DNA of 64,000 nucleotides from NCBI RefSeq assembly GCF_002251855.1, contig NZ_NOXW01000021.1:248001-312000 (forward strand), written 5' to 3'. The notes below the pieces were generated by a model that did no database searches, had not been told where the DNA came from, and saw nothing but the letters and a program-made list of their open reading frames with translations. The position numbers and the translations under genes are program-made. The DNA is from Rhodoferax sp. TH121 (lineage in GTDB: Bacteria; Pseudomonadota; Gammaproteobacteria; Burkholderiales; Burkholderiaceae_C). Below are positions 41,629 to 55,898 of the stretch, piece by piece; position 1 is the first letter of the stretch; the number at the start of each line of letters is the position of its first letter.

Positions 41629-42299
41629 TGCAAATGTTGGATGCTGTCAAAGCCGTTTTGTTCGATCTGGATGGTACCCTCATCGACAGCGCCCCCGATT
41701 TGGGTGCTGCCGCAGACAAAATGCGATTGGATCGCGGCATGCCTTCATTGCCGCATGCGCTTTACCGCCCCATGGCAGGTGCCGGTGCCCGCGGCATGCT
41801 GCAGGTTGCTTTCGGCATTGCGCCGCAAGACCCCGCTTTCGAGTCTATGCGTGAAGAGTTTTTCGCCAATTACGAGCGCTGCATGACGCACAACACCTAT
41901 GCGTTTGACGGAGTTTCAGCCTTGTTGCACACACTGGAGCAGCGCGGCCTCCCATGGGGGGTTGTGACGAACAAGTCTGAGCGATTTACTAGACCCTTGA
42001 CGCAAGCCATGCCGATATTTGCCAAGGCCGCAGTAGTTGTGAGTGGAGACACTACGCCCCATGCCAAGCCACATCCAGCCCCTCTGCTAGAGGCTGCCAA
42101 TCGTCTGGGCGTAGATCCGCGCCACTGTATTTATGTTGGTGATGACGAACGTGACATCATTGCCGGACATGCGGCTGGCATGCGTACGGTCGCTGCAACC
42201 TACGGTTATTTGGGTAGCCAGCTAGACACGGCAGCATGGCATGCCGACGCCGAAATTAAATCTCCCATTGCCCTCTTGCAATTACTCCCTAGCGCCTAA
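41628..42299 (+). CDS. gph: Phosphoglycolate phosphatase (HAD family)
   Basis: HAD-type hydrolase of 223 residues that removes phosphate from 2-phosphoglycolate. Motif I FDLDGTLIDSAPDL, cap domain, motif II VVTNKSERF, motif III lysine in PHAKPHPAPLLEAA, and motif IV YVGDDERDIIAGHAAGM. The ATG overlaps the ubiG stop; ubiG-gph is a usual pair in Burkholderiales. The ssrA promoter overlaps the last codons. Confidence 0.92.
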   Translation: MQMLDAVKAVLFDLDGTLIDSAPDLGAAADKMRLDRGMPSLPHALYRPMAGAGARGMLQVAFGIAPQDPAFESMREEFFANYERCMTHNTYAFDGVSALLHTLEQRGLPWGVVTNKSERFTRPLTQAMPIFAKAAVVVSGDTTPHAKPHPAPLLEAANRLGVDPRHCIYVGDDERDIIAGHAAGMRTVAATYGYLGSQLDTAAWHADAEIKSPIALLQLLPSA

Positions 42300-42302
42300 A
42301 AT
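42276..42302 (+). promoter_or_regulatory. Probable ssrA promoter
   Basis: TTGCAA and TAAAAT separated by 15 bases, with the -10 ending ten bases before the first base of mature tmRNA. The short spacer makes the -35 call less certain than the -10. The promoter lies over the end of gph. Confidence 0.5.
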
Positions 42303-42311
42303 AGGGACTGA

Positions 42312-42688
42312 GGGGCTGCACTGGTTTCGACACGGGTTCGGACGCGTAGCAGGGCATGTCGAGCTGAATGCGCTCGTAAAACAGATTCAAACAAACTAAC
42401 TGCAAACGACGAACGTTTCGCACTCGCTGCTTAATTGCACGTGAGGCTCACAACAGCAAGCCGATAGGCTGGGCAAGGGTGGCGCAAGCCGTCCAGGCTG
42501 TGGGCTAATTTCATTCGGCTGGATCTGCTTTGGGTAACTTAGGGCAGGTCGAGATAATAGGTTGCTGGCGTCTTGCATAGCGTGCCACTGCGCGATGTAG
42601 GAAGCGAGACTTAAACCAGATGGCTACACATGTAGAACTGTTCGAAGAAGGCTTGTGGACGCGGGTTCAAATCCCGCCAGCTCCACCA
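42312..42688 (+). ncRNA. ssrA: Transfer-messenger RNA (tmRNA)
   Basis: Rescues stalled ribosomes and tags nascent chains. The 5' end GGGGCTGCACTGGTTTCGAC and the 3' end GTTCAAATCCCGCCAGCTCC followed by ACCA form the tRNA-like part; the acceptor stem GGGGCTG pairs with CAGCTCC. The internal reading frame at 42402-42434 encodes the tag ANDERFALAA and a TAA, a typical betaproteobacterial tag. About 377 bases, one-piece form. Its 3' end is a classical integration target, and an integrase gene lies 250 bases downstream. Confidence 0.98.
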
Positions 42689-42700
42689 CACTCAAGTCCA

Positions 42701-42735
42701 AGGCCGTTTGCTGACATCCAGCAAGCGGCCTTTTT
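42701..42735 (+). terminator. Intrinsic terminator of ssrA
   Basis: A 13-bp stem (AGGCCGTTTGCTG with CAGCAAGCGGCCT, one G-U pair) around the loop ACATC, followed by TTTTTCTTT. Confidence 0.92.
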
Positions 42736-42808
42736 CTTTGGTAAATCAACAACTTACAGGCATTTCGCTTCCATGTTAGTGCATTGAAGTGCGCCGACAG
42801 CCAGCCCC

Positions 42809-42836
42809 AAACCGGGGAACAAAGCGGGGAACAAAC
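42809..42836 (+). repeat. Left terminal repeat of the island (AACCGGGGAACAAA units)
   Basis: A 28-base segment containing ACCGGGGAACAAA twice matches the segment at 55287-55314 with one mismatch. Two inverted copies, TTGTTCCCCGGT, follow at 42863-42874 and 42918-42929, the latter just before the integrase start. The layout suits arm-type integrase sites or an integrase operator. Confidence 0.7.
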
Positions 42837-42941
42837 CGGGGTAAGGGCTAAAATTTGGCGAGTTGTTCCCCGGTCTGGTGTGCATTTACCCCGGTGGAAC
42901 TGTCCCAGAGTGGCCACTTGTTCCCCGGTAGGAGGTTTCCC

Positions 42942-44186
42942 ATGCTGACCGACAAGCAATGCAAAAACGCTGTTTGCCCCCCTGACAAGACCCGCGCCCG
43001 CTTCACCGATGGTGCGGGCCTGTACCTGGAAGTCAGCCCGGCAGGTTCCAAACGCTGGTTCTGGAAAACGTACCAGGACGGCAAGGAAGGGCGCTTGGCG
43101 CTGGGCAGCTACCCCGCTATGAGCCTGAGCGATGCCCGGCGGGCGCGTGATGCCGCCAAGATCGTCAAGGCAGAGGGCCGCAACCCGGTAGAAGTGCGCA
43201 AGGTTGAAAAGCTCAAGGCCGCCAGACCGGGCGGGGATACCTTCAAAGCTGTTGCCCTGGAGTGGTATGCCAAGCAGGCCCCACAGTGGAGCGCAAGTCA
43301 TGCAGAGCGCACGCTGCGCCAGTTGGAGCGCGATCTATTCCCCTGGATTGGTGCACGGCCTATCGCTGAGATTCATGCGATGGAGCTACTGGCTGCTCTC
43401 CAGAAGGTGGAGGAGCGCGGGGCAATAGAAACTGCAGACCGTGTGCGCTTGGTTGCTGGCATGGTGTGGGACTATTGGTTACCCACGGCAAACGTGCAGC
43501 AGCGCAACATCACCGAGGGCCTGAAAGCGCGACTGACCCCCTACCGTGGCAAAACCTTTGCTGCCATTGTGGAGCCCGCCCGTTTTGGTGAGCTGTTGCG
43601 GGCGCTGATGGCCTACAAGGGCGGAGCTATCGTACGCACGGCCCTGCAGCTCGCGCCGCTGCTGTATCAGCGCCCCGGCAACTTGCGCGAAATGGAATGG
43701 GCAGAGCTGGACCTTGATGCCGCTCTGTGGGTAATCCCAAGCGCAAAGATGAAGCGCACCAAGCTGGAGAAAGAGCAGGGCGACGCCCACGCCGTACCCC
43801 TTCCCACCCAAGCGGTGGAGCTGCTGCGCAGCATCCAGCCCCTGACCGGGCACGGGCGGTATGTGTTCCCCGGTGAGCGCAGCCATGACCGGCCTATCTC
43901 TGACAACTCCGTGCGCAGCGCCTTGTATGCGTTGGGCTTTGGCAATGAGCAGACCTGGCACGGCTTCAGAGCCAGTGCTCGCACGATGATGGTGGATGAG
44001 CTGAACCTTGACCCGCTGGCCATTGAGGCGAACCTTGCCCATGCTGTAAAGGATGCCAACGGGCGTAGCTACAACCGCACACAGTACCTGGCGCAGCGCT
44101 TTGAGCAAATTCAGAAGTGGGCGGATTATCTAGACAAGCTGCGCAAGGGGGCAGACGTTATCGCCATGCCGACACGTGCCGCCTGA
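42942..44186 (+). CDS. P4-type tyrosine integrase
   Basis: Site-specific recombinase of 414 residues that would integrate and excise the island. N-terminal DUF4102 arm-binding domain (MLTDKQCKNAVCPPDKT, then DGAGLYLEVSPAGSKRWFW, LGSYPAMSLSDARRARD), a SAM-like core-binding domain, and the catalytic domain with Arg in YQRPGNLREMEW (about 245), HGFRASARTMM (His-x-x-Arg, about 340) and the Tyr in NRTQYLAQR (about 383). The start MLTDKQ has the site GTAGGAGG just upstream. Best preserved evidence of mobility in the region. Confidence 0.95.
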   Translation: MLTDKQCKNAVCPPDKTRARFTDGAGLYLEVSPAGSKRWFWKTYQDGKEGRLALGSYPAMSLSDARRARDAAKIVKAEGRNPVEVRKVEKLKAARPGGDTFKAVALEWYAKQAPQWSASHAERTLRQLERDLFPWIGARPIAEIHAMELLAALQKVEERGAIETADRVRLVAGMVWDYWLPTANVQQRNITEGLKARLTPYRGKTFAAIVEPARFGELLRALMAYKGGAIVRTALQLAPLLYQRPGNLREMEWAELDLDAALWVIPSAKMKRTKLEKEQGDAHAVPLPTQAVELLRSIQPLTGHGRYVFPGERSHDRPISDNSVRSALYALGFGNEQTWHGFRASARTMMVDELNLDPLAIEANLAHAVKDANGRSYNRTQYLAQRFEQIQKWADYLDKLRKGADVIAMPTRAA

Positions 44187-44208
44187 GATCCCCGGCCAGT
44201 CCCAACGC

Positions 44209-44242
44209 AAACCGCCTGCACCAGTTGCGAGGCGGTTTTTTT
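44209..44242 (+). terminator. Intrinsic terminator of the integrase gene
   Basis: AAACCGCCT and AGGCGGTTT arms around a 12-base loop, continued by further Ts, about 25 bases after the stop. Confidence 0.88.
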
Positions 44243-44281
44243 GCCTGTGAAACCGTGAAATTTCAGCCGGACGCTCGTTTT

Positions 44282-44377
44282 TGTAGGGGACACAGGGGAC
44301 AAACTGCGTTTCAGAGGAGAAATGGCAGAAAACTGTAGGGGACTAGCAGGGGACTAATAGGGGACTAATAGGGGACA
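44282..44377 (+). repeat. Left GGGGAC iteron cluster
   Basis: Six copies of GGGGAC begin at 44286, 44295, 44338, 44349, 44360 and 44371. The last four are spaced exactly 11 bases apart (units GGGGACTAATA). The first pair forms TGTAGGGGACACAGGGGACA, whose exact reverse complement occurs at 54370-54389. The surrounding 44.2-44.6 kb gap holds no convincing gene. Confidence 0.85.
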
Positions 44378-44630
44378 AACTCTCTCTATCTCATCTATTG
44401 AAGTTTCTTCACTTTCAAGCTCTTCACACGGCTCTATACCGGGCCCATGCCGCCCGCTTCCCCTGCTTGATTGCGGTCCCCCTTGGTGCTGTTGTCTTTG
44501 GATGCCTGCGCACCTTGCCGGAATTGAGCGCGATTGCATTTCCTCTCGTGCCAAACCCTCAGCGAGAATACTGCTCAGCAGATGAACCCGAGGCGATATC
44601 TCTCGGAAAAACAAGTGTGAGGGAGTGTGC

Positions 44631-45191
44631 ATGGCTTACAAAATTTTTGATTCCTGTGTTTTTGTTCCGGGCTTGAGTACAACTGAATGTGCAAGCTGGG
44701 TGCAGGCAATTGGCTCACTAATGGCAATTGCTGTCGCTTGGTTCATTGCCAGCAGGCAAGCAAATCGTCTTGCAGCTGAGAAAGTTTTCGATGAGGCTCA
44801 GCGAACTATAGAGAAAGTAGCGCCGGCAATTGCCATCATTGAAGAGGCTGTTGCAGATTTGAAAAGTATTCACGATGAGACACTCAACTCTATTGAGCGT
44901 GGCGCATTTCGGCCGCCGTTTGATGCGCTTGATCGAGCACGGCGTTACGCAGAAGTCTTCAACACAATCCAAATTGCAAATATGCCATCGGTGGAGTGCG
45001 CAAAGGTGGCTCTCAGAGTCCGTAAGCTACTGAGTGATTCAGATGGTGTCTTGAACCTGACCATAAACAGGCTTGATCCCCAGCAAACTACTCTTGGCGC
45101 AACTGAAGACGTAATTGGATTTCACATAAGCGTCTTGGAAGAGCAAGTTCAAAAACTCAAATCTGAGCTTGTACGAATCAACGCCCGTTAG
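44631..45191 (+). CDS. Unknown protein: one membrane helix plus coiled coil
   Basis: 186 residues from MAYKIFDSCVFVPG, with GGGAG upstream. One hydrophobic helix near the N-terminus (CASWVQAIGSLMAIAVAWFIA) is followed by a long charged helical region (RQANRLAAEKVFDEAQRTIE and, at the end, ISVLEEQVQKLKSELV) that looks like coiled coil. Not recognised. It is AT-richer than host genes and converges on the three-gene leftward operon 97 bases away. It may belong to the same cargo, for example as a membrane effector, but that is inference. Confidence 0.65.
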   Translation: MAYKIFDSCVFVPGLSTTECASWVQAIGSLMAIAVAWFIASRQANRLAAEKVFDEAQRTIEKVAPAIAIIEEAVADLKSIHDETLNSIERGAFRPPFDALDRARRYAEVFNTIQIANMPSVECAKVALRVRKLLSDSDGVLNLTINRLDPQQTTLGATEDVIGFHISVLEEQVQKLKSELVRINAR

Positions 45192-45287
45192 GTCGACCAT
45201 GTGCTTCCGTATGTGCGCACATATGTAGTACCCCAGAGCCTTGCTAGGTATCAGCTTCTGAGCAACTAAAAAACTGTTCTCTATTCG

Positions 45288-45956
45288 CTATTTGTATTTC
45301 TTGGCTGATCGGGCGCTCTTGTCTTTGGGCGCAAAGTGCAGAGATATACAGAAATGCCAGACTCTGAAGGGGACTCCGAGGCTTTCATGTTCTTGCTCAG
45401 TTATGAAGCCCCATGGGCCCCGCCTATTGCAATCGCTATAGGTTGTGCCCTCAGAATCAAATTGCTCTTTGAAGTGCTCTTTCCAGTCTGCAACATGTTT
45501 TGCTGCCCGAGATCTGCGAAGGTAGCCAATCAGTCCACCATGTACCAAGTTAAGAGAGCCGCTGCCTGGTGAATAACGAGTCGAGAGCTGAAGGTAACCT
45601 TCTCTCATGTCGGCAACGCTTTTAAAGCGTTTAGCCTCGCCGATCCATTTGAAGCCCCGCTTGGGGAGTTCGACAGTAATGTCTACAGCCCCGCCAGACT
45701 GTGCGTCATGTGAGGCTTGATACTGAAAACCGAAGAGTATTAGGAGAAGCTTCTCAGTCGTAGCGTCCTCTTCGTCCTCTAGGTGTAGTTGAGGATTTTG
45801 TTCAAGTCTCTCAGTCGCCAGTTTCAGGTCGTCATACAAAACCTCAACAAAATCACTGTAAGTCTTTACTGTCAGCCTGCGGAGCATGTTGGCCAAGAAG
45901 ACATCTTGAGTGGCCAAGGCTTCTAGCTTTTCAATGGTTAGCGAGTTGTCAGCCAT
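45288..45956 (-). CDS. Unknown protein with PD-(D/E)XK nuclease signature (cargo gene 3)
   Basis: 222 residues. The middle contains GGAVDITVELPKRGFKWIGEAKRF, here read as Asp92, Glu107 and Lys109, spaced as in the PD-(D/E)XK superfamily core (a strand with Asp, then E-x-K on the next strand), followed by a helix with Gln123 and Tyr128 (YLQLSTRY). The N-terminal 75 residues are helical and acidic (LEDEEDATTEKLLLILF). This fits a restriction-like nuclease of about the usual domain size. It is last in a leftward operon, its start abutting the stop of the preceding gene. No family name can be given; assignment rests on motif reading only. Confidence 0.65.
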   Translation of the reverse strand: MADNSLTIEKLEALATQDVFLANMLRRLTVKTYSDFVEVLYDDLKLATERLEQNPQLHLEDEEDATTEKLLLILFGFQYQASHDAQSGGAVDITVELPKRGFKWIGEAKRFKSVADMREGYLQLSTRYSPGSGSLNLVHGGLIGYLRRSRAAKHVADWKEHFKEQFDSEGTTYSDCNRRGPWGFITEQEHESLGVPFRVWHFCISLHFAPKDKSARSAKKYK

Positions 45957-46394
45957 TCAGTTTCCGCGCCCCGCTGGAGAGCTCTCGCTTTCAAGCATCA
46001 AGCGCATGGCTGTGGTTGGCCTAAAGTAGATCGACACCTTACTTCCAATCTCAGGGTCGACTTCGCCATTTACGGGGTTGATCTTGTCATCGATCACGGA
46101 CTTGACCTCATCGACCGTCAAGTCGTAAGGTGTCATTTCATCCAAAACCAGTTCAAAGCAACTATCAAGCAAACCAATGCCCTCAGCCGACAGGAACTGG
46201 AGTGTTCTGACGATGCTTGTGTCGGAGGGTTTGAAGAGCTTTGCTTCAGCAATGCGCCTCGTTAGTTGCAATGTGATGTGGCTCGCCTCGGGATGCTCGT
46301 TCAAGTACTCAAACAAATGCTTGGCCGTGATGCATTCGGCACCGCTGCCAAAAATGCCTTCCAGCTTGTCAAGTATCTGATTGGAGCTTTGCAT
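45957..46394 (-). CDS. Unknown protein (cargo gene 2)
   Basis: 145 residues, soluble, no signal peptide. N-terminal half is helical (ILDKLEGIFGSGAECITAKHLFEYLNEHPE), and the C-terminal half has alternating strands (GSKVSIYFRPTTAMRLMLESE). The segment TPYDLTVDEVKSVIDDK resembles TPYDVTVAWDSIINV in the gene before it, so the two proteins may share a short related element. Stop/start spacing to both neighbours is 0-1 base, which argues strongly for one operon and coupled expression. Function not recognised. Confidence 0.7.
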   Translation of the reverse strand: MQSSNQILDKLEGIFGSGAECITAKHLFEYLNEHPEASHITLQLTRRIAEAKLFKPSDTSIVRTLQFLSAEGIGLLDSCFELVLDEMTPYDLTVDEVKSVIDDKINPVNGEVDPEIGSKVSIYFRPTTAMRLMLESESSPAGRGN

Positions 46395-46395
46395 C

Positions 46396-47478
46396 TCAGT
46401 TCGAGGCGTACGACACCAGCTTGTTCACTACAACTGTTACTGCATTGTCGCCACGCGCATCAATAATTCTTGCGTGTCGAACGTGGAAACTATCTGTGGC
46501 CAATCCGGAAATTGGCATGCCAACTTGAACACTTACGGCACCAGTGACATTGATTATTGAGTCCCAAGCGACTGTCACATCGTAGGGAGTGACCTCGCCC
46601 ACAATGTCAATACCACCCTGGATGAATGCATCGACTCGCAAGTCTTCAGATGCCTTTGCGCCTCGGTTAACTAAACCAGTTGGCGTTCTGAAGCTGAGGT
46701 GACTCACTCGACCTTCCCGCTTTGCAAGATAAAGGCCGCTGATGCACGGCGCTAGATTTAACGGCGTGTTTGCATGATAAATGGCCTGCAACACATCTGA
46801 GTAGTGTGCCAACCTGCCCAATATCGCAACGCCCCGTTTCTCGTTAGTTTCAGGTGGTCGCAGTTTGGTTGGCTGGTCCACCAGCACTTCGATTCGATGC
46901 AAGCTCTTGCGTAAGTTCACGACATCAAAGACTTGGTAATTGGATCTTTTGATGGTGACAAATTCATCGAACCCATCAAAGGCCATCTTCACCGCTTCGG
47001 TAACCTCGTTGTACTGGTAGGAGGTTCGCTCTTCTTCACTGCGTTTCGCGCACAAAATTAGCGAAATATCACCGTTTGAGTGCGTAACCTTTTTTACTAG
47101 CTTGTGATCTGTTGACTCGTTCGCAAGTTGTGTCGGAGAAAGAGGGAATGGATAGGAGTCTTGATAGCTGCTCTGAGAGACTTCAATCCCCGTGAGGGCT
47201 GCGTGCAGGGCCTCTGTTTGAACTTGATCAAGTGGGTATACAAAAATGTCTTTTGTCCCCGCAATAACGATATCGCTGTAGAGATTGCCGATCATTCTTT
47301 CGACATTGCTGATTACCGAAGCATCAGCTTCTCTGAGCTTATCCAATAGCTTGTCCCAGCCGCCGCCATGTGGCAGTCCAGCCACCTTCAACAGTGCTGA
47401 AAGCTCCCGAAATTGAAAGCGATCTCTGAGATTGTTCAAAAGCCGGACATACCTGTCCGGTGGATTTCCAGTAGCCAA
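46396..47478 (-). CDS. Unknown protein, first gene of the three-gene cargo operon (cargo gene 1)
   Basis: 360 residues from a TTG start with the strong site AGGGGG six bases upstream. N-terminal 90 residues look like a compact helical domain (RYVRLLNNLRDRFQFRELSALL, then WDKLLDKLREADASVISNVERMI), comparable in size to small adaptor or death-fold-like domains of defence proteins, but this is a loose resemblance. The rest is beta-rich with VAILGRLAHYSDVLQAIYHAN and GGIDIVGEVTPYDVTVAWD. No nucleotide-binding or catalytic motif is visible. A perfect 10-bp inverted repeat spans its promoter and start. Confidence 0.7.
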   Translation of the reverse strand: MATGNPPDRYVRLLNNLRDRFQFRELSALLKVAGLPHGGGWDKLLDKLREADASVISNVERMIGNLYSDIVIAGTKDIFVYPLDQVQTEALHAALTGIEVSQSSYQDSYPFPLSPTQLANESTDHKLVKKVTHSNGDISLILCAKRSEEERTSYQYNEVTEAVKMAFDGFDEFVTIKRSNYQVFDVVNLRKSLHRIEVLVDQPTKLRPPETNEKRGVAILGRLAHYSDVLQAIYHANTPLNLAPCISGLYLAKREGRVSHLSFRTPTGLVNRGAKASEDLRVDAFIQGGIDIVGEVTPYDVTVAWDSIINVTGAVSVQVGMPISGLATDSFHVRHARIIDARGDNAVTVVVNKLVSYASN

Positions 47479-47522
47479 ACCAGCCCCCTATTTTTTTGCA
47501 GAGCATAGCATTGCTGGTTTGG
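47475..47522 (-). promoter_or_regulatory. Inverted repeat enclosing the cargo operon start
   Basis: CCAAACCAGC (47475-47484) and GCTGGTTTGG (47513-47522) are perfect 10-base complements with 28 bases between. For leftward transcripts the TTG start codon lies in the downstream arm and the AGGGGG site in the loop next to it. It could be an operator or an RNA hairpin hiding the start. Confidence 0.6.
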
Positions 47523-47562
47523 GGATTGCCGTGCAATAATCTACACAAGCCAGCAATGGCCC

Positions 47563-47760
47563 GGTGCGTAAGAACACCTTTGGATAAGCGGTGCAGCCTC
47601 CCCGATAGTGAGGTTTTGTCACGTCTGGATATGGCGAATGGCCCACCCGTGGGGCGTTCCGAGTTTTGGGCGGGATGGCCTCAGTGGTAACACCTGGCGC
47701 ACGGCTTATCCCGTGTTCTTAACATCCCGTCCACCCGTTGTGCGTAAGAACACACCGAGT
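47563..47760 (+). promoter_or_regulatory. Candidate RNA switch / attenuator leader
   Basis: Segment A (TAAGAACAC at 47569-47577 and GGATAAGC at 47582-47589) is complementary to segment B (GCTTATCC at 47704-47711 and GTGTTCTTA at 47713-47721). Segment C (TAAGAACAC at 47745-47753) can also pair with B. B also lies in a local hairpin (CACGG-CTTATC-CCGTG, 47700-47715), enclosed by a 10-11-bp stem (47668-47677 with 47723-47732). These pairings exclude each other. The site lies 33 bases before a five-gene rightward operon. Confidence 0.5.
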
Positions 47761-47792
47761 GGTTTTGAAGTCTCGATAAGGAGCATGAAACC

Positions 47793-48068
47793 ATGGCGAA
47801 AGCTATTCAACTTGCCAGCCCCAGCGCTGGTGCCCGTCCTGTGCTGACAGTGCAGACGTTTAGACAACAAACTCCCGACCTAGTAGCCCGCCAAGCGGCC
47901 ATTGAGAACGCCCTAAGCATGGCGCTTCACTTCGTGCGTTTGCCGGGTGAGTCTGCCGCCAATCTCTGGGCCGCTACAGCCCGCGCAAATCGGGCGCTCA
48001 CGCTGTTAAAGCAGGCGAGTGAAGGCGTGGGGCACACCAGCCCTGCAAACGTGTCTGGGAGGGCTTGA
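47793..48068 (+). CDS. Small unknown island protein 1
   Basis: 91 residues, helical, no membrane segment (LVARQAAIENALSMALHFVRL, ANLWAATARANRALTLLKQA). AAGGAG lies nine bases before the ATG; an ATG eight bases earlier opens a different short frame. First of three consecutive small genes whose ends share the same junction sequence. The core resembles the helical bundle of the next protein in layout only. Function unknown. Confidence 0.7.
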   Translation: MAKAIQLASPSAGARPVLTVQTFRQQTPDLVARQAAIENALSMALHFVRLPGESAANLWAATARANRALTLLKQASEGVGHTSPANVSGRA

Positions 48069-48071
48069 ATC

Positions 48072-48365
48072 ATGGTCCGTAAGACTCAATCCAAGTCGGG
48101 CAGCTCATTGCCTGCACTTTGCACCCAGCTTATTCAGCTTGCCTTTCAGATGCCCGGCGGCCTGAAAGTGAAAGTCAAAGACCAATTGATGGCAGCCCAC
48201 CGAGCTTTGTGCGCTCAATCTGGACCCGATCTATCGGCGGCACAAGCTGCCATGGCGGCAGCGTTGAGCGCCTGCATGGAAAACCGCTTGCTTGATGAAC
48301 GCCCAGAGACTGGCTTGGTCTACACCGTCGCCAATCTGTTGGCAGATTCGCAGGGAAGGGCTTGA
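48072..48365 (+). CDS. Small unknown island protein 2
   Basis: 97 residues, mostly helical (LCTQLIQLAFQMPGGLKVKVKDQLMAAHRALCAQ; DLSAAQAAMAAALSACMENRLL). The basic N-terminus MVRKTQSKSG might contact nucleic acid. It starts three bases after the previous stop, and its ribosome site GGGAGGG is inside the end of the previous gene. Not recognised. Confidence 0.7.
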   Translation: MVRKTQSKSGSSLPALCTQLIQLAFQMPGGLKVKVKDQLMAAHRALCAQSGPDLSAAQAAMAAALSACMENRLLDERPETGLVYTVANLLADSQGRA

Positions 48366-48368
48366 GCC

Positions 48369-48635
48369 ATGACACTTGCCACCGTGAAAAACATTGAATA
48401 CGGCCGGGCGCACAAGGTTCTAAAAAAGGCCCCGGCGCATCGCCACGTGAAGTGCGTTGAACTGTTGAAAGAGCAGGCGTCTTTGGTTGATCGCCTGGTG
48501 ACTGTTCGTTGCATGTTGAACGCTTTGACCGACACCGACCCGCAACCAATTCAAAAGCAGCCGGGCAAAGTGTTCCAACTCCGTGATGGTGCGAGTCCGA
48601 AAGGCAAGCCCGAATCTCAGTGCGGGAGGGCTTGA
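48369..48635 (+). CDS. Small unknown island protein 3
   Basis: 88 residues, basic (IEYGRAHKVLKKAPAHRHVK, then QPIQKQPGKVFQLRDGASPKGK). Starts three bases after the preceding stop; site GGGAAGGG inside the preceding gene. Ends in GRA like the two before it, because the same junction sequence encodes the tail. Not recognised. Confidence 0.68.
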   Translation: MTLATVKNIEYGRAHKVLKKAPAHRHVKCVELLKEQASLVDRLVTVRCMLNALTDTDPQPIQKQPGKVFQLRDGASPKGKPESQCGRA

Positions 48636-48638
48636 GCT

Positions 48639-49205
48639 ATGGCCTCAACGATATCTAACCAAGCAACACCCCGCACACGTGCAAAGGCCCGCACCATGGC
48701 CAGCGAAGCTGTGCCAGCCTATGGCTTGGGCGACGGTGTGTTGTCGTTCCGTCATAGCCTGCTGGCCCGCGAGCGCAACGCAATCGACCGGGCGTTAGAG
48801 ATTGTGGGGCGTTGCCTGCGTGAAACCCATTCCCAGTTCACATCTCCGGACGCGGTGAAGGCATATTTACGTCTGCACATGGCTGGTGAACAACGCGAGC
48901 GCTTTGCTGTTTTGTTTTTGGATTCGCAAAATCGTGCGCTAGCCTTTGAAATTATGTTCACTGGAACACTGACGCAGACCAGCGTCTACCCCCGTGAGGT
49001 AGTGCAAGCCGCCATACATCATGGCGCGGCAGCCGTGATTCTTGCTCACAACCATCCCAGCGGCGCTGTGACGCCAAGCCGAGCTGACGCGGCACTGACG
49101 CAGACCCTTAAAGCTGCCCTGGCACTGGTGGATGTTCGGGTACTAGATCACATGATTGTTGGCGGCACGAGTGCGTTCAGCATGGCCGAAACCGGAATGT
49201 TGTAA
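48639..49205 (+). CDS. RadC/JAB-domain protein
   Basis: 188 residues with the JAB/MPN-like metal-binding domain of the RadC family: LFLDSQNRALAFEIMFTGTL, TSVYPREVVQAAIHHGAAAVIL, and the ligand motif HNHPSGAVTPSRAD (His137, His139, Asp150). The usual N-terminal helix-hairpin-helix of chromosomal RadC is replaced by a basic, Thr/Ala-rich leader. Such short RadC proteins are frequent on plasmids, islands and satellites; their biochemical role is unsettled and the DNA-repair name is historical. Fourth gene of the rightward operon. Confidence 0.9.
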   Translation: MASTISNQATPRTRAKARTMASEAVPAYGLGDGVLSFRHSLLARERNAIDRALEIVGRCLRETHSQFTSPDAVKAYLRLHMAGEQRERFAVLFLDSQNRALAFEIMFTGTLTQTSVYPREVVQAAIHHGAAAVILAHNHPSGAVTPSRADAALTQTLKAALALVDVRVLDHMIVGGTSAFSMAETGML

Positions 49206-49209
49206 GCCT

Positions 49210-50124
49210 ATGACAGCTAAGGTAATACCCATGAAGCCCACGAAGCCCGCCAGCCCTCCAACAGTCACGCCTCCAGCGAGCTGGAAAGTTGTCTCTGCTT
49301 ATGGCAGCTTGCAGACACGTGCGGGTGTTGATCTCGTTCGGCTTGAGGAGGTGCATGCCTCAATGTGTGAAAAGGGGATACCGCCCAAAGAAGCTACCTA
49401 CGACATTTTTGCCCCGTTCTATACCGAGTGCATTGCTGCCGTTGGTGGGCATAAGGTCGATGCCCCGTTAATCGAACAATTGCATGCTGCTTGTGCGCTA
49501 GATCGGCCAATAACCTTGTTCCGCGATGGCGCACTCAGCAGGCATGAACATGCGCGGCCATACGGGTTACTCCCCGAGCTGGGCCACGTGCGATTGACCG
49601 ACGGAAGCCCTGGAGGAGTTCTCTACACCCTTGGGGAAGCTGCCTTACGCGTTTGGGTTGGCAGTGCCGATCGCACAACCGACCATGCAGAAGTTTGGAA
49701 GGCGAAGCGTACAGCGACAGAGGAGCAAAAGTACGGTATTGAGTGGCCATCAGATGACGCGCTATGCAAGGTGTTGGGGCGTATTGCAGTGAGCCATGAC
49801 CTGGCGCACCGGCTTTGGGGCTGGGGGACGGTGGGCGTTGCTGCTATGGATGCGTCCCAAAACCAAGTGGAATCATTGGTCGGCACAGTGGCTAAGTCTA
49901 AAGTTGCGCAACGTGAGCTTGCCCCGGACTGGTCGGGTGAAAGGCTGGCCAAGCGACAGGCCGAGTTGAAGACTGAATGCCTCGCGCAAGGCCTGCGAAA
50001 TTTCACTGCGTTATTGGCGACAGAGTGCGGACTACCCATACGGGAAGTGACACGGCGTATCAAGGCAGTAAAAGGCAATTCTTTGGGTGCCATGGCCGAG
50101 CAATTGAAGCGCCAAGCCAAATAG
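49210..50124 (+). CDS. Unknown island protein, about 304 residues
   Basis: Starts at MTAKVIPMKPTKP, four bases after the RadC-like stop. Soluble. N-terminal part has VVSAYGSLQTRAGVDLVRLEEVH and a helical segment CEKGIPPKEATYDIFAPFY; the C-terminal part is basic and helical (RLAKRQAELKTECL, ECGLPIREVTRRIKAV), ending in a possible DNA-binding helix pair. Placed between the RadC-like gene and the AlpA-like regulator, a position often used for island maintenance proteins. No family recognised. Confidence 0.75.
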   Translation: MTAKVIPMKPTKPASPPTVTPPASWKVVSAYGSLQTRAGVDLVRLEEVHASMCEKGIPPKEATYDIFAPFYTECIAAVGGHKVDAPLIEQLHAACALDRPITLFRDGALSRHEHARPYGLLPELGHVRLTDGSPGGVLYTLGEAALRVWVGSADRTTDHAEVWKAKRTATEEQKYGIEWPSDDALCKVLGRIAVSHDLAHRLWGWGTVGVAAMDASQNQVESLVGTVAKSKVAQRELAPDWSGERLAKRQAELKTECLAQGLRNFTALLATECGLPIREVTRRIKAVKGNSLGAMAEQLKRQAK

Positions 50125-50127
50125 AAC

Positions 50128-50213
50128 TTTGCCGAGTGCTTTTGTCCGTCGCCCCTTGTGGGAGTCGGCAAAACGAGTCGGCAAGCCCGTCCATTGATCG
50201 GCAACTTTTGCCG
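50128..50213. repeat. TCGGCAA motif cluster upstream of the AlpA-like gene
   Basis: Direct copies TCGGCAA at 50165, 50178 and 50198, with inverted copies TTGCCGA at 50129 and TTGCCG at 50208. The last direct and inverted copies face each other across CTT. Probably a protein-binding control region for the gene that starts at 50286. Confidence 0.6.
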
Positions 50214-50285
50214 TTCTGAAATTCCTCACAAGCCCGCTGACTCCATTCCGGTATCGAGGGCTTCCAACTCTGAGGAAAACCCACC

Positions 50286-50552
50286 ATGAAAGCTGTTACC
50301 CCTTCCGTGGCGCCGCTGCCGATGCATATCGCTGCCAGTGCCGCACCCGTTATTCCCCGTGACCGCATCCTGCGATTGCCGGACGTGGAGCGCATAACTG
50401 GCCTGAAAAAGTCCACTATCTACGCCCTTGCAAAAGACAAAGAGTCCAACTTTCCGCGCCAGATCCACATTCATCGGCGTCTGACTGGCTGGAGCGAAGC
50501 CGCTGTGCTGACCTGGGTGCAATCCCGCTTGCAGGAAGGTGGTGTGCAATGA
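50286..50552 (+). CDS. AlpA family regulator / excisionase-like protein
   Basis: 88 residues with an N-terminal Ala/Pro-rich extension and the AlpA winged-helix core RILRLPDVERITGLKKSTIYALAKDKESNFPRQIHI, then LTGWSEAAVLTWVQSRL. AlpA proteins act as transcriptional regulators and excisionases of P4-like satellites and islands. Site AGGAAAA precedes the ATG. Stop overlaps the next start by four bases. Preceded by a repeat-rich control region. Confidence 0.92.
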   Translation: MKAVTPSVAPLPMHIAASAAPVIPRDRILRLPDVERITGLKKSTIYALAKDKESNFPRQIHIHRRLTGWSEAAVLTWVQSRLQEGGVQ

Positions 50553-50968
50553 ACGGCGAAACCTGGCCAAAAGAAGAGCAACGCCTTTGCAATGGTGCCT
50601 GCGGGCAAGTGCGAGCAGTTGCAATTGATGGTGAGGCTTTTCCATTGCCTCAACAGGTTGTGGAGGAGGCAAATATTGCCATCGACATTGCAGACCACAT
50701 GGCAGAACAGTCGATGGATTACGCAAGAAATGCCATTGGGCTAAACCTCGCAAAGACTGCCCACGTCTCGAATGTTGTGCATCTTGCTGCTGCCCACTTG
50801 GAGTGCGCCAGCAGGGTGTATGTCGCACGGCAGCACGTGGACGCCTTGCGCGATGTCGGCATTGAAAACGCAGGCGCGATAGACAGTGCTGGCACTGTGA
50901 TCGGTGCAGGCCTTGCTGAAGGTCTGCAAGTGGCTTGCAACGGCCGAACATGCCGCCGCCGTACCTAA
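50549..50968 (+). CDS. Unknown island protein, 139 residues
   Basis: Overlaps the AlpA-like gene by four bases (ATGA). Near the N-terminus CNGACGQVRAVAIDGEAF has two close cysteines. The remainder is helical and Ala-rich (EEANIAIDIADHMAEQSMDYARN, VVHLAAAHLECASRVYVARQHVDAL). No membrane segment. The ending CNGRTCRRRT is basic. Probably co-expressed with the primase-helicase 68 bases downstream. Not recognised. Confidence 0.72.
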   Translation: MNGETWPKEEQRLCNGACGQVRAVAIDGEAFPLPQQVVEEANIAIDIADHMAEQSMDYARNAIGLNLAKTAHVSNVVHLAAAHLECASRVYVARQHVDALRDVGIENAGAIDSAGTVIGAGLAEGLQVACNGRTCRRRT

Positions 50969-51036
50969 GCCTACGTCCATCCCCTAAAACGGCGCAGCGT
51001 CCCGGCTGGGGCCTGCGCAAGTCCTGACACCCACCC

Positions 51037-53928
51037 ATGAACACCCCCACCCCTGAGCTGATACGGCAGGCGCTTCAACACATACCGGCAAACCTGCCCC
51101 GCGATGAGTGGGCGCGTGTCGGCATGGCGATCAAATCCGAATACCCAGACGATACGGGTCGCGAACTGTTCACAGATTGGAGTGCTACCGCCGATGGCTT
51201 CAACCAAAAAGACGCGCTCGATACCTGGCGCAACATCAAGGCAGGCGGCGGGGTAGGCATTGGCACGCTGCTGTACCTGGCAAAAGAAAACGGGTTCACC
51301 ATGCCAAAGACTGGCCAGCCCCAGAGCAAGCCCGACCCGCAAGCCGCTGCACGCATTGCCCATGAGCGTGCGGCCGTACAGCTTGAAGAGCGCGACCAGC
51401 AAGAGGCAGCGCACCGACAGGCAGCAAGCGAGGCTGCAAGCGTATGGGAGCAGGGCGGCGAGACTGGCCAGAGCGCTTACCTGGTGCGCAAAGGTGTGCA
51501 ACCCTATGGCGTGCGCTTTGGGGCAGGTGGCTGGCTGCTGGTGCCCGTGCGCGATGCTGCGGGCGAGCTGTGGAACGTGCAGCGCATTGCCCCTGACAAG
51601 CCCACCAGCGGGCCGGATAAGTTGTTTCTGAAGGGCGGGCGCAAGTCGGGCTTTTGGCACCTGTGCGGCGACCCTGTAAGCGCAACGGTGCTGCTGGTGG
51701 CTGAAGGCTATGCCACGGCAGCGAGCTTGCATGAAGCCACAGGGCGCCCGGTGGCCGTGGCCTTTGATGCGGGCAACCTGGCACACGTTGCCAAGGCTCT
51801 GCACCAACATTACCCCGCTGCGCTGCTGGTGCTGTGCGGTGATGACGATGTGCAGACGTTTGCACAAAAGGGCCACAACCCCGGCAGGGACAAAGCCACG
51901 GCAGCGGCCATGGCAGTGCAGGGCATTGCTGTATTCCCTGAGCAGTTGCCAGAGGGGGGCAGCGACTTCAACGATATGCACCAAGCGGCGGGGCTGGATG
52001 CGGTGCGGACGTTGGTAGAGGCCGCAATTGCAGCGCACCAAACCCAGCAACAGGCTGCGGAAAAGCCAAAAGCTGGCCAGCGCACCCAGCGACAGCAAAA
52101 CGAGCACACAGAGCGGCAAAGCGCCGCGGGCTTTGAGCGCTTCCATGTGGCTGACGGCGATGGCCTTTACTACACCCCGCCCGGTGATGATGGCGGCGCA
52201 CCCCGTAGGGTTTGCGGTGTGCTGCGAGTGGTGGGCATGGCACGGGACAGCCACGACAACCAAGCGGCCCTGCTGCTGGAGTTTGTGACCCAGTTCGGCA
52301 AGGTGCGGCGCTGGCTGATGCCGTTGGCAATGCTGGCCGGGGATGGCAACGCCTACCGCACTGCGCTGCTGGGGCTGGGTTTCATGACGCCCACCGATGG
52401 CAAGCGCCGTGCGTGGCTCACTGAATACCTGCAGAGCCGCAACCCTGAAGCCTTGGAGCTCGTGCGCCATGTGCCCCGCGTAGGCTGGGCGGGCCGTTGC
52501 TACGTGCTGCCCGACGAAACACTGGGCACCAGCCACAGCGGGGAGCGGGTCATATTCCACAGCGAAGCGGGCATAGAGGCCAACTTCAGCAAGCGCGGCA
52601 ACCTGGCGCAGTGGCAACAGGATCTTGCACGCTTGTGCGTGGGCAACTCCCGTGCTGCCTTTGCGGTGGCCACTGCCTTTGCGGGGCCGCTGCTGGCATG
52701 GGCCAATGGTGTGACAGGCGGCGGGGTTCACTATGTCGGGCCTACGTCCATTGGCAAAACCACATGCTTCCTATTGGCTGCGAGCGTGTGGGGGAAGGGC
52801 ACCGAGAAAGACCCAGACAGCTACATGCAGAAATGGCGGGCAACGTCCAACGGCTTGGAGTACCAGGGCGAGCAGCACAACGATTGCACGCTGATCCTGG
52901 ATGAGCTGGGGCAGATGGACGCCGGGGACGCTGGCAACGCTGCGTACATGCTTGCCGATGGCATGGGCAAAACACGGGGCAAGGGGGCTGGCGGGCTGCG
53001 GCCTAAGCCTACCTGGCGGCTATTGTTCCTGAGCAGTGGCGAGCTGACCCTCGCCCAGCACATGGAGACGGTGGGCAAAAAGATGAAGGGCGGGCAGGAG
53101 GTGCGCCTGATCCCGATACCAACCGAGGTGCGGGAAGGGTCTGCCCTGGAGCAGTTCCACGAATTCAGCAACGGGCACGAAATGTCCGGCTGGGTGCAAG
53201 GCCACGCGGCCCGCTGCTATGGCGTGGCGGGCCGTGCTTGGCTCGAATACCTGGTTGCCAATACAGAGGGGCTGGCCGCTGGCCTGCGTGCCCGTATGGA
53301 CGCGATAGAGGCCCAGATTGTCCCGGCCAATGCTTCGGGCCAAGTGAAGCGGGGCGGGCGGCGCTTTGCCCTGATTGCTGCAGCCGGTGAGATGGCCACG
53401 GCAGCGGGCATTACAGGATGGCCCGCTGATGAAGCAATCAACGCTGCACAGGTCTGCTTTGATGCGTGGATCAAGTTGCGGGGCGGGGCTGGCAGTAGCG
53501 AGAAAACCAACATGCTGCGGGCGGTTCGTTCGTTCCTGGAGACGCACGGTGATGGCCGGTTTGCAATGTGGCACAGGGCGGCAGATGACCACGCCCCCAA
53601 GACGTTGCAGCGGGCCGGTGTGCGGCGCATGTTGAACGAAGACGGTGAGCCCATCAAGACCAACAGCCAGCACGCGGTGGAGTTCGGTGAGCGGATGCCC
53701 GCTGCGGTAGGCGAGGCAGTCAGCTTTGAATACTTCGTACTGTCGGAGACGTTCAAAGCTGAGGTGTGCAAGGGCTATGACGTACAGGCCGTGTGCGCTG
53801 TCCTGGTGGAGCATAGTTGCTTGACTGTGAAAGAGCCGGGGCGCTACAGCATCAAGACCAAGCTGCCCGGCATTGGGCCTGCACGGTGCTACCTGGTTAC
53901 GCCTGCAATCTTTGATCTTGACGTGTAG
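51037..53928 (+). CDS. Primase-helicase (PriCT-2, Toprim, DUF927)
   Basis: Large replication protein of 963 residues. The PriCT-2-like N-terminus (about 1-90) reads RQALQHIPANLPRDEWARVGMAI and DALDTWRNIKAGGGVGIGTL. A Toprim-type region (about 200-330) has VLLVAEGYATAASLHEATG and LVLCGDDDVQ. The DUF927 helicase-like half has Walker A GPTSIGKTT (about 568) and Walker B LILDELGQM (about 618). This is the architecture used by satellites and islands for autonomous replication, comparable in role to P4 alpha. It supports replication of the excised element; the GGGGAC clusters are its likely cis sites. Confidence 0.9.
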   Translation: MNTPTPELIRQALQHIPANLPRDEWARVGMAIKSEYPDDTGRELFTDWSATADGFNQKDALDTWRNIKAGGGVGIGTLLYLAKENGFTMPKTGQPQSKPDPQAAARIAHERAAVQLEERDQQEAAHRQAASEAASVWEQGGETGQSAYLVRKGVQPYGVRFGAGGWLLVPVRDAAGELWNVQRIAPDKPTSGPDKLFLKGGRKSGFWHLCGDPVSATVLLVAEGYATAASLHEATGRPVAVAFDAGNLAHVAKALHQHYPAALLVLCGDDDVQTFAQKGHNPGRDKATAAAMAVQGIAVFPEQLPEGGSDFNDMHQAAGLDAVRTLVEAAIAAHQTQQQAAEKPKAGQRTQRQQNEHTERQSAAGFERFHVADGDGLYYTPPGDDGGAPRRVCGVLRVVGMARDSHDNQAALLLEFVTQFGKVRRWLMPLAMLAGDGNAYRTALLGLGFMTPTDGKRRAWLTEYLQSRNPEALELVRHVPRVGWAGRCYVLPDETLGTSHSGERVIFHSEAGIEANFSKRGNLAQWQQDLARLCVGNSRAAFAVATAFAGPLLAWANGVTGGGVHYVGPTSIGKTTCFLLAASVWGKGTEKDPDSYMQKWRATSNGLEYQGEQHNDCTLILDELGQMDAGDAGNAAYMLADGMGKTRGKGAGGLRPKPTWRLLFLSSGELTLAQHMETVGKKMKGGQEVRLIPIPTEVREGSALEQFHEFSNGHEMSGWVQGHAARCYGVAGRAWLEYLVANTEGLAAGLRARMDAIEAQIVPANASGQVKRGGRRFALIAAAGEMATAAGITGWPADEAINAAQVCFDAWIKLRGGAGSSEKTNMLRAVRSFLETHGDGRFAMWHRAADDHAPKTLQRAGVRRMLNEDGEPIKTNSQHAVEFGERMPAAVGEAVSFEYFVLSETFKAEVCKGYDVQAVCAVLVEHSCLTVKEPGRYSIKTKLPGIGPARCYLVTPAIFDLDV

Positions 53929-54297
53929 GCAGGTGGGGCGCTGTGGGTGTGGGGCTGGGTGCATTGCTTAATGCCCCAGCACCACAGTGCTAGCGCCTCT
54001 GATCAATGGCTACTGAGTAGCTGCACGGGCCGCGCGTGGGGGCGGTGTGTGCGAAGCCCTTTCGCGCTGCAAAAGCGGGTCTGTGTGCCCCCTTGATGTG
54101 CCCCAAGGAAAACAGGGTGCAAGGCGTCTGGATTGTCCTGGTGCTGGCCTTGTCGCCGCTGCGGTCTGCGTAACTTAGTTACAGAAGCAGCAGCGGCTTC
54201 AAGTGTTGCCGGGTTCGCTCTGTTCTCTTGGCTTGTCACCCTGCGCAGTTGCACATTCCGGTGCGTTGGACTTCGGTGGACTTCCTGCTGGCTGTTT

Positions 54298-54389
54298 GTC
54301 CCCTGCTGTCCCCTGCTTTCTCAGATGCCGGGGACCGCGCAAACCCGCATGGATAGGGGCTGTCCCCTATGTCCCCTGTGTCCCCTACA
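54298..54389 (-). repeat. Right GTCCCC iteron cluster (inverted relative to the left one)
   Basis: GTCCCC begins at 54298, 54308, 54362, 54371 and 54380, with one GGGGAC at 54330. The segment 54370-54389 is the exact reverse complement of 44282-44301. The cluster lies in the gene-free kilobase after the primase-helicase. Confidence 0.85.
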
Positions 54390-54588
54390 GAAAAAGCGGG
54401 TGGCCGAACTTTGCGCGGTGCTGCGTTGGACTATTCCGTAACGGTGTTACTCACATTCGTGCTGTGCTTGTTGTAGATGTGTGGGGAGGGGATGCACTGG
54501 GTGTTGAACTGCGGCCTCAGACGCATAACTGCTGGGGCTGGGTTGTTGGCCTTGCCTGGGCCTGCACACAGGGTGGGGCAGGGGTGGT

Positions 54589-54831
54589 CAAAAGTGCGGC
54601 TGTTGTCGGCCGGAAACCGACCGCTTAGCAGCATGTTTATGGGGAAATGAAACTACCCCCCTGGGGTTTGGGGTGGGGCCGCTTCGCTATGGCTATGGCT
54701 TGTAGTTGTAGGGCTGGCCTGTGCGCCCGGTGGGACAAGGGGAGGGGGGGATTAAAAGTCTGGAACCCATAGACCGGAAACCGGCCGCTTAGCCAAATTT
54801 TTGTGTGCGCAAGTTATGGGGAGGGGGGGGG
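54589..54831 (+). repeat. Direct repeat and G-tracts in the gene-free region after the primase-helicase
   Basis: CCGGAAACCGACCGCTTAGC (54610-54629) recurs with one mismatch at 54774-54793; each copy is preceded by AAAAGT about 20 bases upstream and followed by TTATGGGGA. G-runs of seven (54744-54750) and nine (54823-54831) are present. The whole 53929-54921 gap shows no convincing gene and is the best candidate for a replication origin. Confidence 0.6.
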
Positions 54832-54921
54832 TGCCCGGCTTACGTTGTCATACTAACGTCGGGTTGCTACTGAATGTTGACCATGTCGGCGCGGCGCAGT
54901 GGCAAATCAAGGGAGGGGAAA

Positions 54922-55200
54922 ATGGCTAAATTTACAATTCGCGTCGAACTTCACGACGCCCAAGCGAAGGACTACGCAACTCTTGAGAAGGCGCTTGCGG
55001 CCAAAAACATTACGGATGTGATCACTAGCGATGGTGTTAAGTACAAAATGCCACCGGCGGAATACCAATGCCATGGTGAACTGACTGCCGCGCAAGTTCG
55101 AGATATAGCTGTTGCCGCTGCGGAGTCGACTGGAAAAAAACACGCAGTTCTTGTGACTGAATCAGCGTCCAGGGCATGGGTCGGTCTGAATAAGGTCTAA
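54922..55200 (+). CDS. GhoS-like (DUF2622) small protein, possible orphan antitoxin
   Basis: 92 residues from MAKFTIRVELHDAQAKDY, with GGGAGGGG seven bases upstream; longer starts lack a site. The pattern RVELHDA, then MPPAEYQCHGELTAAQV, then AVLVTESASRAWVGL matches what I recall of the small DUF2622/GhoS-type family on integrative elements, in which GhoS is the RNase antitoxin of a type V toxin-antitoxin pair. No GhoT-like membrane toxin is visible next to it. Rightmost gene of the island. Family assignment from memory, moderate. Confidence 0.6.
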   Translation: MAKFTIRVELHDAQAKDYATLEKALAAKNITDVITSDGVKYKMPPAEYQCHGELTAAQVRDIAVAAAESTGKKHAVLVTESASRAWVGLNKV

Positions 55201-55286
55201 ACCAAAGATGAGCTAGGTCCAATTAAAGCCTTGCACGAAAGGATCCCTGCGATGTGACCAGCGCCTGAAGCGGGGTAGCAAAACCG

Positions 55287-55314
55287 AAACCGGGGAACAA
55301 ATCGGGGAACAAAC
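55287..55314 (+). repeat. Right terminal repeat of the island
   Basis: Matches the left terminal repeat with one mismatch (T at 55302 for G at 42824) and in the same orientation; contains two GGGGAACAAA units. Followed by about 120 bases without a gene before the arfB stop. Confidence 0.7.
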
Positions 55315-55435
55315 TCAAAGAAAGAATGCTTTTCTTTAGGTTTCATGCGGGTTCTGGGGCTTCTTTCAATTGACGCCAGCCCATACCTCCTGACAAGAGT
55401 CGCCAACCCGCAAGGGGCGGCGGCTTTTTTCTTGC

Positions 55436-55840
55436 CTATTCCACGGGTTTGCCACGTTGGGCTTTGATGGCTGAGCGTTGAGTTTTGGTCTGCAGACGGC
55501 GCTGGCGGGACGCGTAGGTAGGCTGGGTTGCCTTGCGGGGCTTGGGTGGTGTGGCAATACTGTTGACCAGCGCATGTAGCCGCGCGAAGGCGTCCAGCCG
55601 ATTGAGCTCTTGTGTACGAAATTGCTGTGCCTTGATGATCATTACACCCTCGCGGGTGATGCGGCTGTCTTGCAGGAGCAGTAGTCGCTCCTTGATGCCA
55701 TCAGGCAAAGAGGACGCTGGTATGTCGAAGCGCAGGTGGATGGCGCTGGATACTTTGTTGACATTTTGTCCTCCTGCGCCTTGTGCACGAATCGCCGTTG
55801 TTTCTACCTCGGCTTCCTCTATTTGAATTTCGATTGCCAT
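55436..55840 (-). CDS. arfB: Alternative ribosome-rescue factor / peptidyl-tRNA hydrolase ArfB
   Basis: Release-factor-like hydrolase that frees stalled ribosomes without tmRNA; 134 residues. The catalytic GGQ is in RAQGAGGQNVNKVSSAIHLRF, followed by a release-factor domain 3-like fold and the basic C-terminal tail (KPRKATQPTYASRQRRLQTKTQRSAIKAQRG) that enters the mRNA channel. A GC-rich hairpin with a T-run near 55400-55435 lies beyond the stop. Before the island inserted, it would have been near ssrA. Confidence 0.95.
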   Translation of the reverse strand: MAIEIQIEEAEVETTAIRAQGAGGQNVNKVSSAIHLRFDIPASSLPDGIKERLLLLQDSRITREGVMIIKAQQFRTQELNRLDAFARLHALVNSIATPPKPRKATQPTYASRQRRLQTKTQRSAIKAQRGKPVE

Positions 55841-55898
55841 GAGCAGTGATGGGCCAGTTAAACTGGATTGACCTTACCACCATCATCAAGGAGTCACT

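Follow-up and report, generated by a model that had tools for sequence, protein, structure and literature searches.

A stretch of 64,000 nucleotides from Rhodoferax sp. TH121 (contig NZ_NOXW01000021.1, forward-strand positions 248,001 to 312,000), which we call the window, carries three adjoining genes, A, B, and C, whose best explanation is a mobile nuclease cassette directed most likely against phages and other invading DNA; we put the probability of this reading at about one half. All three genes lie on the minus strand. Gene A (46396..47478) encodes 360 amino acids (aa) from a TTG start and is the proposed recognition module, gene B (45957..46394; 145 aa) is a proposed small adaptor, and gene C (45288..45956; 222 aa) encodes a predicted PD-(D/E)XK nuclease that would be the effector. 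A and B are separated by 1 base and B and C by 0. The guanine-plus-cytosine (GC) content of the trio is 0.494, compared with 0.603 for the window, and 1.5% of the 2191-base segments in the stretch are as GC-poor. The genome contains one copy. Searches of A, B, and C against Pfam and NCBIfam returned nothing above the curated cut-offs, the window trio had zero matches in PADLOC at E values up to 10, and the PHROG families matched (phrog_12777 for A, phrog_11490 for B, and phrog_9664 for C) are each of unknown function. A first-pass annotation, made from the sequence alone, had described three leftward genes of 360, 145, and 222 residues, spaced by 0-1 base, AT-richer than the host genes and of no recognized family; coordinates, strand, spacing, composition, and the database searches all bear out that description. 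Pfam TPR_ATM was considered as an identity for A and rejected, as its score fell under the cut-off of that family.

The three genes travel together. We found the order A-B-C at 27 curated loci, which have gaps of -49 to 17 bases between genes and fall into 18 groups at 50% identity of C, and at five later loci (four from the order of genome G610 and one Proteus record). The 27 loci exclude near-copies (L006, L047-L059, L061, L062, and L064); B was assigned by position and size, without a profile, at L009 and L031, as was A at L014. Relatives of C came from five phage records, 16 plasmid records, and four loci on genome contigs, and two scans of IMG/VR added one and 18 loci, while IMG/VR scans with two other C proteins gave no relative. 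Of the records with a C relative, we opened four of the five from phages and eight of the 16 from plasmids, and 11 of these 12 contain A-B-C: Klebsiella phage KP12, an Acinetobacter phage, a Vibrio PM2-like phage, Moraxella phage Mcat13, and plasmids of Pseudomonas, Calothrix, Enterobacter, Klebsiella, Pantoea, Vibrio, and Proteus. The twelfth record, from Rhizobium, has a different partner. One of the plasmids with the trio is 6.1 kb in size, and further sites are on chromosomes, beside integrases, and in P2-like prophages.

Within bacterial genomes the cassette is sparse. C-like matches were present in 5 of 299 genomes of the family (phrog_9664), 8 of 398 of the phylum, 2 of 369 of the class, 6 of 215 in the order of G610, and 1 of 220 in the class of G610. 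Eleven of the 18 different genomes with a C match have A-B-C and five have C with another partner (G1085, G610, G655, G268, and G274); in the remaining two (G056 and G567), the C-like match is limited to one domain of a larger protein of 408-412 aa. In the reverse test, A was detected in 5 of the 398 phylum genomes and lay beside C in all five. Evolutionary distances of A, B, and C were concordant across 23 loci (Mantel r 0.91, 0.86, and 0.82; 0 of 2000 permutations), with r of 0.45-0.63 among remote pairs; L005, L013, L043, and L045 were excluded from this test. We made 15 gene comparisons of nonsynonymous and synonymous substitution rates; 10 of them gave a ratio (dN/dS) of 0.05-0.15, and dS was not computable in the other five. 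Judged by these rates, the trio is under purifying selection. The first-pass annotation had named a trio conserved in varied islands as support for a cassette, and A-B-C is kept together in varied elements. By eye, we saw no common small gene in the unannotated stretches before A at several loci. At the closest relative, from Polaromonas (L002, 2639-4468), a gene for a NERD-UvrD helicase lies in front of A and stops 9 bases short of it.

Gene C is predicted, from its modeled fold and its conserved motif, to encode a metal-dependent PD-(D/E)XK endonuclease. Its AlphaFold2 model, built with 15 sequences (mean predicted local distance difference test [pLDDT] 80.8; predicted template modeling score [pTM] 0.80), has a helix-strand-strand-strand-helix-strand core in which E63 lies in a helix, D92 directly before a strand, and E107 and K109 in the next strand. 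The corresponding minus-strand codons are at 45768..45770 (E63), 45681..45683 (D92, the predicted catalytic aspartate), and 45630..45638 (E107-A108-K109, the ExK motif). Nine residues, including these four together with Q123 and Y128, are invariant in C proteins of all 27 trios and in 11 of 11 others, five of which come from the later trios; the 38 aligned proteins do not include L034 and L041, whose C-like domains are weak. When the model was compared with known structures using VIA-align, the top rows were OkrAI and BglII (both Z 8.1 and root-mean-square deviation [rmsd] 3.9, with 143 and 131 residues aligned) and BamHI (Z 7.8), values near 8 being at the edge of the range that the tool calls trustworthy; McrC, PaqCI, EcoRV, and NucC followed on lower rows. 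Most of the 50 rows are nucleases that we take to belong to the PD-(D/E)XK superfamily. Mrr_cat matched one of 17 C members and not the window protein, and searches of PDB sequences were fruitless with A and C singly and with profiles of A, B, and C. The first-pass annotation had picked out Asp92, Glu107-x-Lys109, and a following Gln/Tyr in gene 3 and had looked to a PD-(D/E)XK fold for it; the five residues are present and invariant, and the model resembles restriction-endonuclease-like nucleases. The outcomes that it had held would count against a cassette did not materialize: the genes co-occur, gene 3 models as nuclease-like, and no non-defense family scored above its cut-off.

To follow B, we used a profile built from the 27 trio B proteins in searches for fusions. 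B has a conserved leucine/phenylalanine pattern and a stretch resembling HP-x-T-G-E, and may be a winged-helix-like adaptor. At several loci where C occurs without A, B is the C-terminal part of another protein, with C directly after it. In G655 (L036), B makes up residues 1636-1761 (hmmsearch E 1.8e-16; hhalign 97%) of a type ISP restriction enzyme of 1764 aa, whose gene precedes C and overlaps it by 4 bases. B and C are thus what A-B-C shares with this type ISP restriction-modification enzyme and the gene after it; searches of A-B-C itself revealed no domain of the helicase, methylase, or specificity type. In G1085 (L122), the partner is a 572-aa fusion of elongation factor EF-Tu with B: Pfam EF-Tu domains 1, 2, and 3 are followed by B at residues 450-567 (E 1.5e-20), the EF-Tu part is 87% identical over ~395 residues to each of the two tuf genes in that genome, its GTPase motifs are intact, and C comes after, with an overlap of 35 bases when the first start of C is used. 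In G610 (L039), C begins 14 bases after a 353-aa paralogue of ribosomal protein S3 that is 61% identical to the genome's own rpsC. On a Rhizobium phaseoli plasmid (L134), a 1089-aa protein ends in B (E 5.9e-14), and C overlaps it by 4 bases. Two further loci have restriction subunits next to C, type I-like at L032 and type III-like at L033. B was not detected in either subunit, and their tails resemble each other (hhalign 93%) and not B. Each exchange for EF-Tu, S3, the type ISP enzyme, or the 1089-aa protein represents one locus.

In these sequences, C, with B where it is detectable, is constant while the first partner varies. Since C without A follows B fused to unrelated proteins, B-C appears to be a portable effector to which interchangeable modules, for recognition or as bait, are attached. 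This goes beyond the first-pass annotation: gene 2 stays with the nuclease, and gene 1 is exchanged. The presence of EF-Tu and S3 among the partners suggests that some of the modules, at least, are baits for phage functions. Tentatively, B-C may serve a new class of bacterial guard systems as a universal plug-in effector, in which a partner, once joined to B, controls a restriction-type nuclease. The partners in such systems would be attacked by phages or would recognize foreign DNA (EF-Tu, S3, an RdgC-fold clamp, and a type ISP enzyme), by analogy with the integrated decoys of immune receptors in plants.

A rival explanation, which we regard as rather doubtful, is that the cassette is an integrated-bait guard. 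In this scenario, the partner, whether fused to B or encoded ahead of it, would mimic a host factor attacked by phages, the candidates being EF-Tu, S3, an RdgC-like DNA clamp, and a restriction enzyme; binding, cleavage, or modification of the bait by a phage protein would cause B to release C, and nucleic acid would be destroyed. A bait would have to resemble the host protein closely, as the EF-Tu and S3 partners do, and this supports the explanation. However, EF-Tu and S3 are represented by one locus each, and the restriction-enzyme partners resemble active enzymes rather than baits. Moreover, the tail of the S3 paralogue is only weakly B-like. It was found with an E value of 0.001, or 2.9e-5 with an enlarged profile, among 8 proteins, and its hhalign score was 26.9; the best of 40 internal control segments scored 17.8, and an unrelated methylase tail 19.6.

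Three of these loci have other neighbors. At L122 (4576-6925), EF-Tu-B and C adjoin a 651-aa protein that by eye resembles a GHKL ATPase. The S3 paralogue, with its extended C-terminus, and C (L039, 96-1804) are on a 3.3-kb contig next to a gene that looks repressor-like by eye. At L033 (3996-10942), a type III-like restriction system has the C-like nuclease gene between its Res-like gene and its Mod (MTase_III) gene.

For gene A, structure prediction points to the fold of RdgC. The model (15 sequences; mean pLDDT 81.8; pTM 0.81) consists of an N-terminal helical domain (residues ~1-67) and an RdgC-like fold (68-360). With Foldseek, only three matches fell below 1e-3, all of them RdgC (E 1.5e-4 to 2.0e-4, probability 1.00). 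VIA-align also found RdgC, with a Z of 11.2, an rmsd of 7.5, and 234 residues aligned over model residues 68-360; the next family reached a Z of 7.6 in a partial alignment of 107 residues. RdgC, whose ring dimers are believed to bind DNA, modulates RecA, and its structural relatives are described as the lambda exclusion protein RexA and the kinetochore proteins Iml3 and Chl4 (PMC11077077). A resembles RdgC in the predicted fold of residues 68-360 and differs from it in the extra N-terminal helical domain, in the lack of sequence similarity, and in lying beside C in 5 of 5 genomes. The first-pass annotation had cast gene 1 as a sensor or adaptor; a recognition role gains support from the RdgC-like fold and from the replacement of A by other partners. 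The host genome has two RdgC genes of its own (G000, C13 and C20).

Comparison of A with RexA by hhalign gave an E value of 0.27, and the relationship between RdgC and RexA was likewise undetected (E 0.49). RexA was not among the matches listed for A (50 rows, Foldseek and VIA-align), which tells nothing either way. RexB is a membrane protein, whereas the partners of A are the proposed adaptor and nuclease. What A-B-C shares with lambda RexAB is a first component of RdgC-like fold (predicted for A; for RexA, PMC11077077) and a prophage-borne exclusion setting. RdgC-like proteins are also on record in a conserved operon with a histone and a transmembrane protein (PMC11390915). As described there, that operon, like A-B-C, is a conserved multi-gene unit containing an RdgC-fold protein with additional small domains, but its partners are a histone and a winged helix membrane protein, and it is found in Bacillus and Halobacteria. 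Finally, PDB chains of CENP-N and CENP-L (Chl4 and Iml3) align to A, those of CENP-N/Chl4 from residue 6-7 and thus covering the N-terminal helices. However, these proteins are eukaryotic and their Z values only 5.1-6.9 (5.1-6.0 for the CENP-N/Chl4 rows; rmsd 4.7-6.2), and the likeness may reflect a shared common arrangement.

The RdgC-like fold also raises the question of whether A and C aid recombination of the element or processing of DNA ends. Five matches to A in a viral library were below 1e-3, two of them phage RdgC/recombination-associated proteins and one an exonuclease, and such a role would also be in keeping with the modulation of RecA by RdgC. We nevertheless consider a recombination or replication module improbable: the trio is sparse, optional, and located in accessory slots, at loci without A its place beside C (and B, if B can be seen) is taken by translation factors and restriction enzymes, and the best fold matches of C are type II endonucleases.

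The location of the cassette provides the link to phages. DNA relatives of the KP12 trio were present in 28 of 5426 E. coli genomes, and six of these covered at least 80% of the query. In all four E. coli regions examined, the trio lies between gpA (replication endonuclease) and gpQ (portal) of P2-like prophages, as it does in KP12; the window trio is not at such a site. The Enterobacter trio gave no DNA match in the E. coli genomes. As reported by Rousset et al. (2022), the gpA-gpQ hotspot of P2 carries anti-phage systems that were found and tested there, and a three-gene hotspot system without clear domains protects against P1 (PMC9122126). From the P2 hotspot, the phages, and the plasmids, we infer an anti-phage role for A-B-C.

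A known trio at the same hotspot, named Rst_3HP (3HP in PADLOC) and described as mostly prophage-borne (PMC9090908), likewise lacks recognized domains and resides in E. coli P2-like prophages. However, its second gene encodes 355 aa, compared with ~145 aa for B. Three E. coli A-B-C trios gave no match to PADLOC Hp1-Hp3 and only one stray match, to Cas9 (E 0.25), while an E. coli hotspot trio that served as positive control (L068) matched Hp1, Hp2, and Hp3. As comparison of A-B-C profiles with those of Hp1-Hp3 also revealed no similarity, we rejected the identification of our trio with 3HP. Going by names and location only, Hp1-Hp3 is presumably the three-gene system of Rousset et al.; provided that this is so, the absence of Hp1-Hp3 matches means that our trio differs from their P1-protecting system. 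In front of Hp1-Hp3 in L068 (4409-7252) is a 386-aa unknown protein.

These locations also bear on whether the cassette could be a toxin-antitoxin or stability cassette, with a toxic nuclease C that is inhibited by A-B and freed on loss of the element, which we think unlikely: the trio is present on the 6.1-kb plasmid and on islands, and the partner lies upstream of C, close or overlapping, but the P2 and phage locations fit exclusion better and, to our knowledge, a three-part system with swapped large partners would be unusual for plain addiction.

A mobile nuclease cassette directed against invaders could work as follows. C would be the effector that cuts nucleic acid. B, which is directly upstream of C, would be the small adaptor tying C to the recognition module. 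A would be the usual recognition module, an RdgC-like and probably ring- or horseshoe-forming protein that, going by RdgC and RexA and by its own predicted fold, would bind DNA. Dimers of A would load on a phage recombination factor or on DNA that is abnormal or undergoing active recombination and replication, and would bring in or release C by way of B. The target of C would be the nucleic acid of the invader or, in an abortive response, that of the cell itself. As the trio includes no methyltransferase, discrimination would rest on the state of the DNA and not on its modification.

Several observations weigh against this explanation. The literature we searched contains no phage challenge of A-B-C. 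As DNA sensors, EF-Tu and S3 would be puzzling; they favor the rival in which partners are baits. For C, Foldseek alone found no PDB match below 1e-3 and ranked first OAS3, which is not a nuclease; Pfam PDDEXK_9 matched weakly in 4 of 17 C members (best E 4.3e-4) and not in the window protein. For A, the TM-scores of the RdgC match were 0.31-0.40, and the rmsd was ~10 with Foldseek and 7.5 with VIA-align; these high values may arise from domains turned against each other, as in RexA compared with RdgC. Since Pfam RdgC (PF04381) was found in 0 of 24 A members and local hhalign gave E values of 0.1-0.3, showing no sequence connection, we rejected RdgC as a sequence relative of A and retained the likeness of fold. 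Lastly, of 10 proteins encoded in the vicinity of a trio or of C, 8 matched PADLOC at 1e-10 or below, including restriction enzymes, MkoC, and the NERD-UvrD helicase, but these ten were chosen by eye as likely defense genes and two are C's own partners, making this a biased set and not a test of enrichment.

Our literature search found no description of an A-B-C cassette, which may figure unnamed in supplementary tables of Rousset et al. or of DefensePredictor. The latter study reports 42 validated E. coli systems, 13 of 31 of them with PD-(D/E)XK domains, and its main text names neither RexA nor RdgC (PMC13092281); the trio may be among the systems that it tabulates. A-B-C is a widely shared and so far unnamed nuclease cassette, probably acting against phages. 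If B-C is portable, one nuclease module is under the control of unrelated sensors, and B-C is a naturally re-plugged design for sensor-controlled nucleases. Such cassettes would provide a direct handle on phage action on EF-Tu, ribosomes, and recombining DNA, would make it possible to test what RdgC-like clamps recognize during infection, and would extend the RdgC/RexA fold from exclusion via a membrane protein to exclusion via a nuclease.

In the window, the cassette is part of an island beside the transfer-messenger RNA (tmRNA) gene (42312..42688, plus strand), the sole Rfam match at the gathering threshold in 42000-56000. A tyrosine integrase open reading frame (42855..44186, plus) adjoins the tmRNA gene, and the island also encodes an AlpA-type regulator (50286..50552, plus) and a replication protein, a primase-helicase with PriCT_2, Toprim, and DUF927 domains (51037..53928, plus). 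The slot between integrase and replication module to which the first-pass annotation had assigned the trio is therefore where it lies. Its description of the island as satellite-like holds in that integrase, AlpA, and primase-helicase, hallmarks of P4-like satellites, are all present; satellite status itself is only partly established. A 28-base direct repeat, with plus-strand copies at 42809..42836 and 55287..55314 that differ by one mismatch and are 12,478 bases apart, is a possible recombination site. In a search for the attachment (att) core, no exact 12-base repeat of the tmRNA end was found within the window.

Between the integrase and C, a gene for a 188-aa protein (44625-45191) converges on the trio. 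The protein has one hydrophobic stretch near its start, as judged by eye, and matches no family above cut-off; Pfam HMA was rejected as its identity because the score was under the cut-off. In two genus relatives (G1044, C116; G1046, C31), short matches to the outer flanks of the island (window positions 42700-42760 and 55340-55410) are adjacent, the right-flank match coming first and the left-flank match second. As the flank matches are side by side in these relatives, the tmRNA site may hold different islands.

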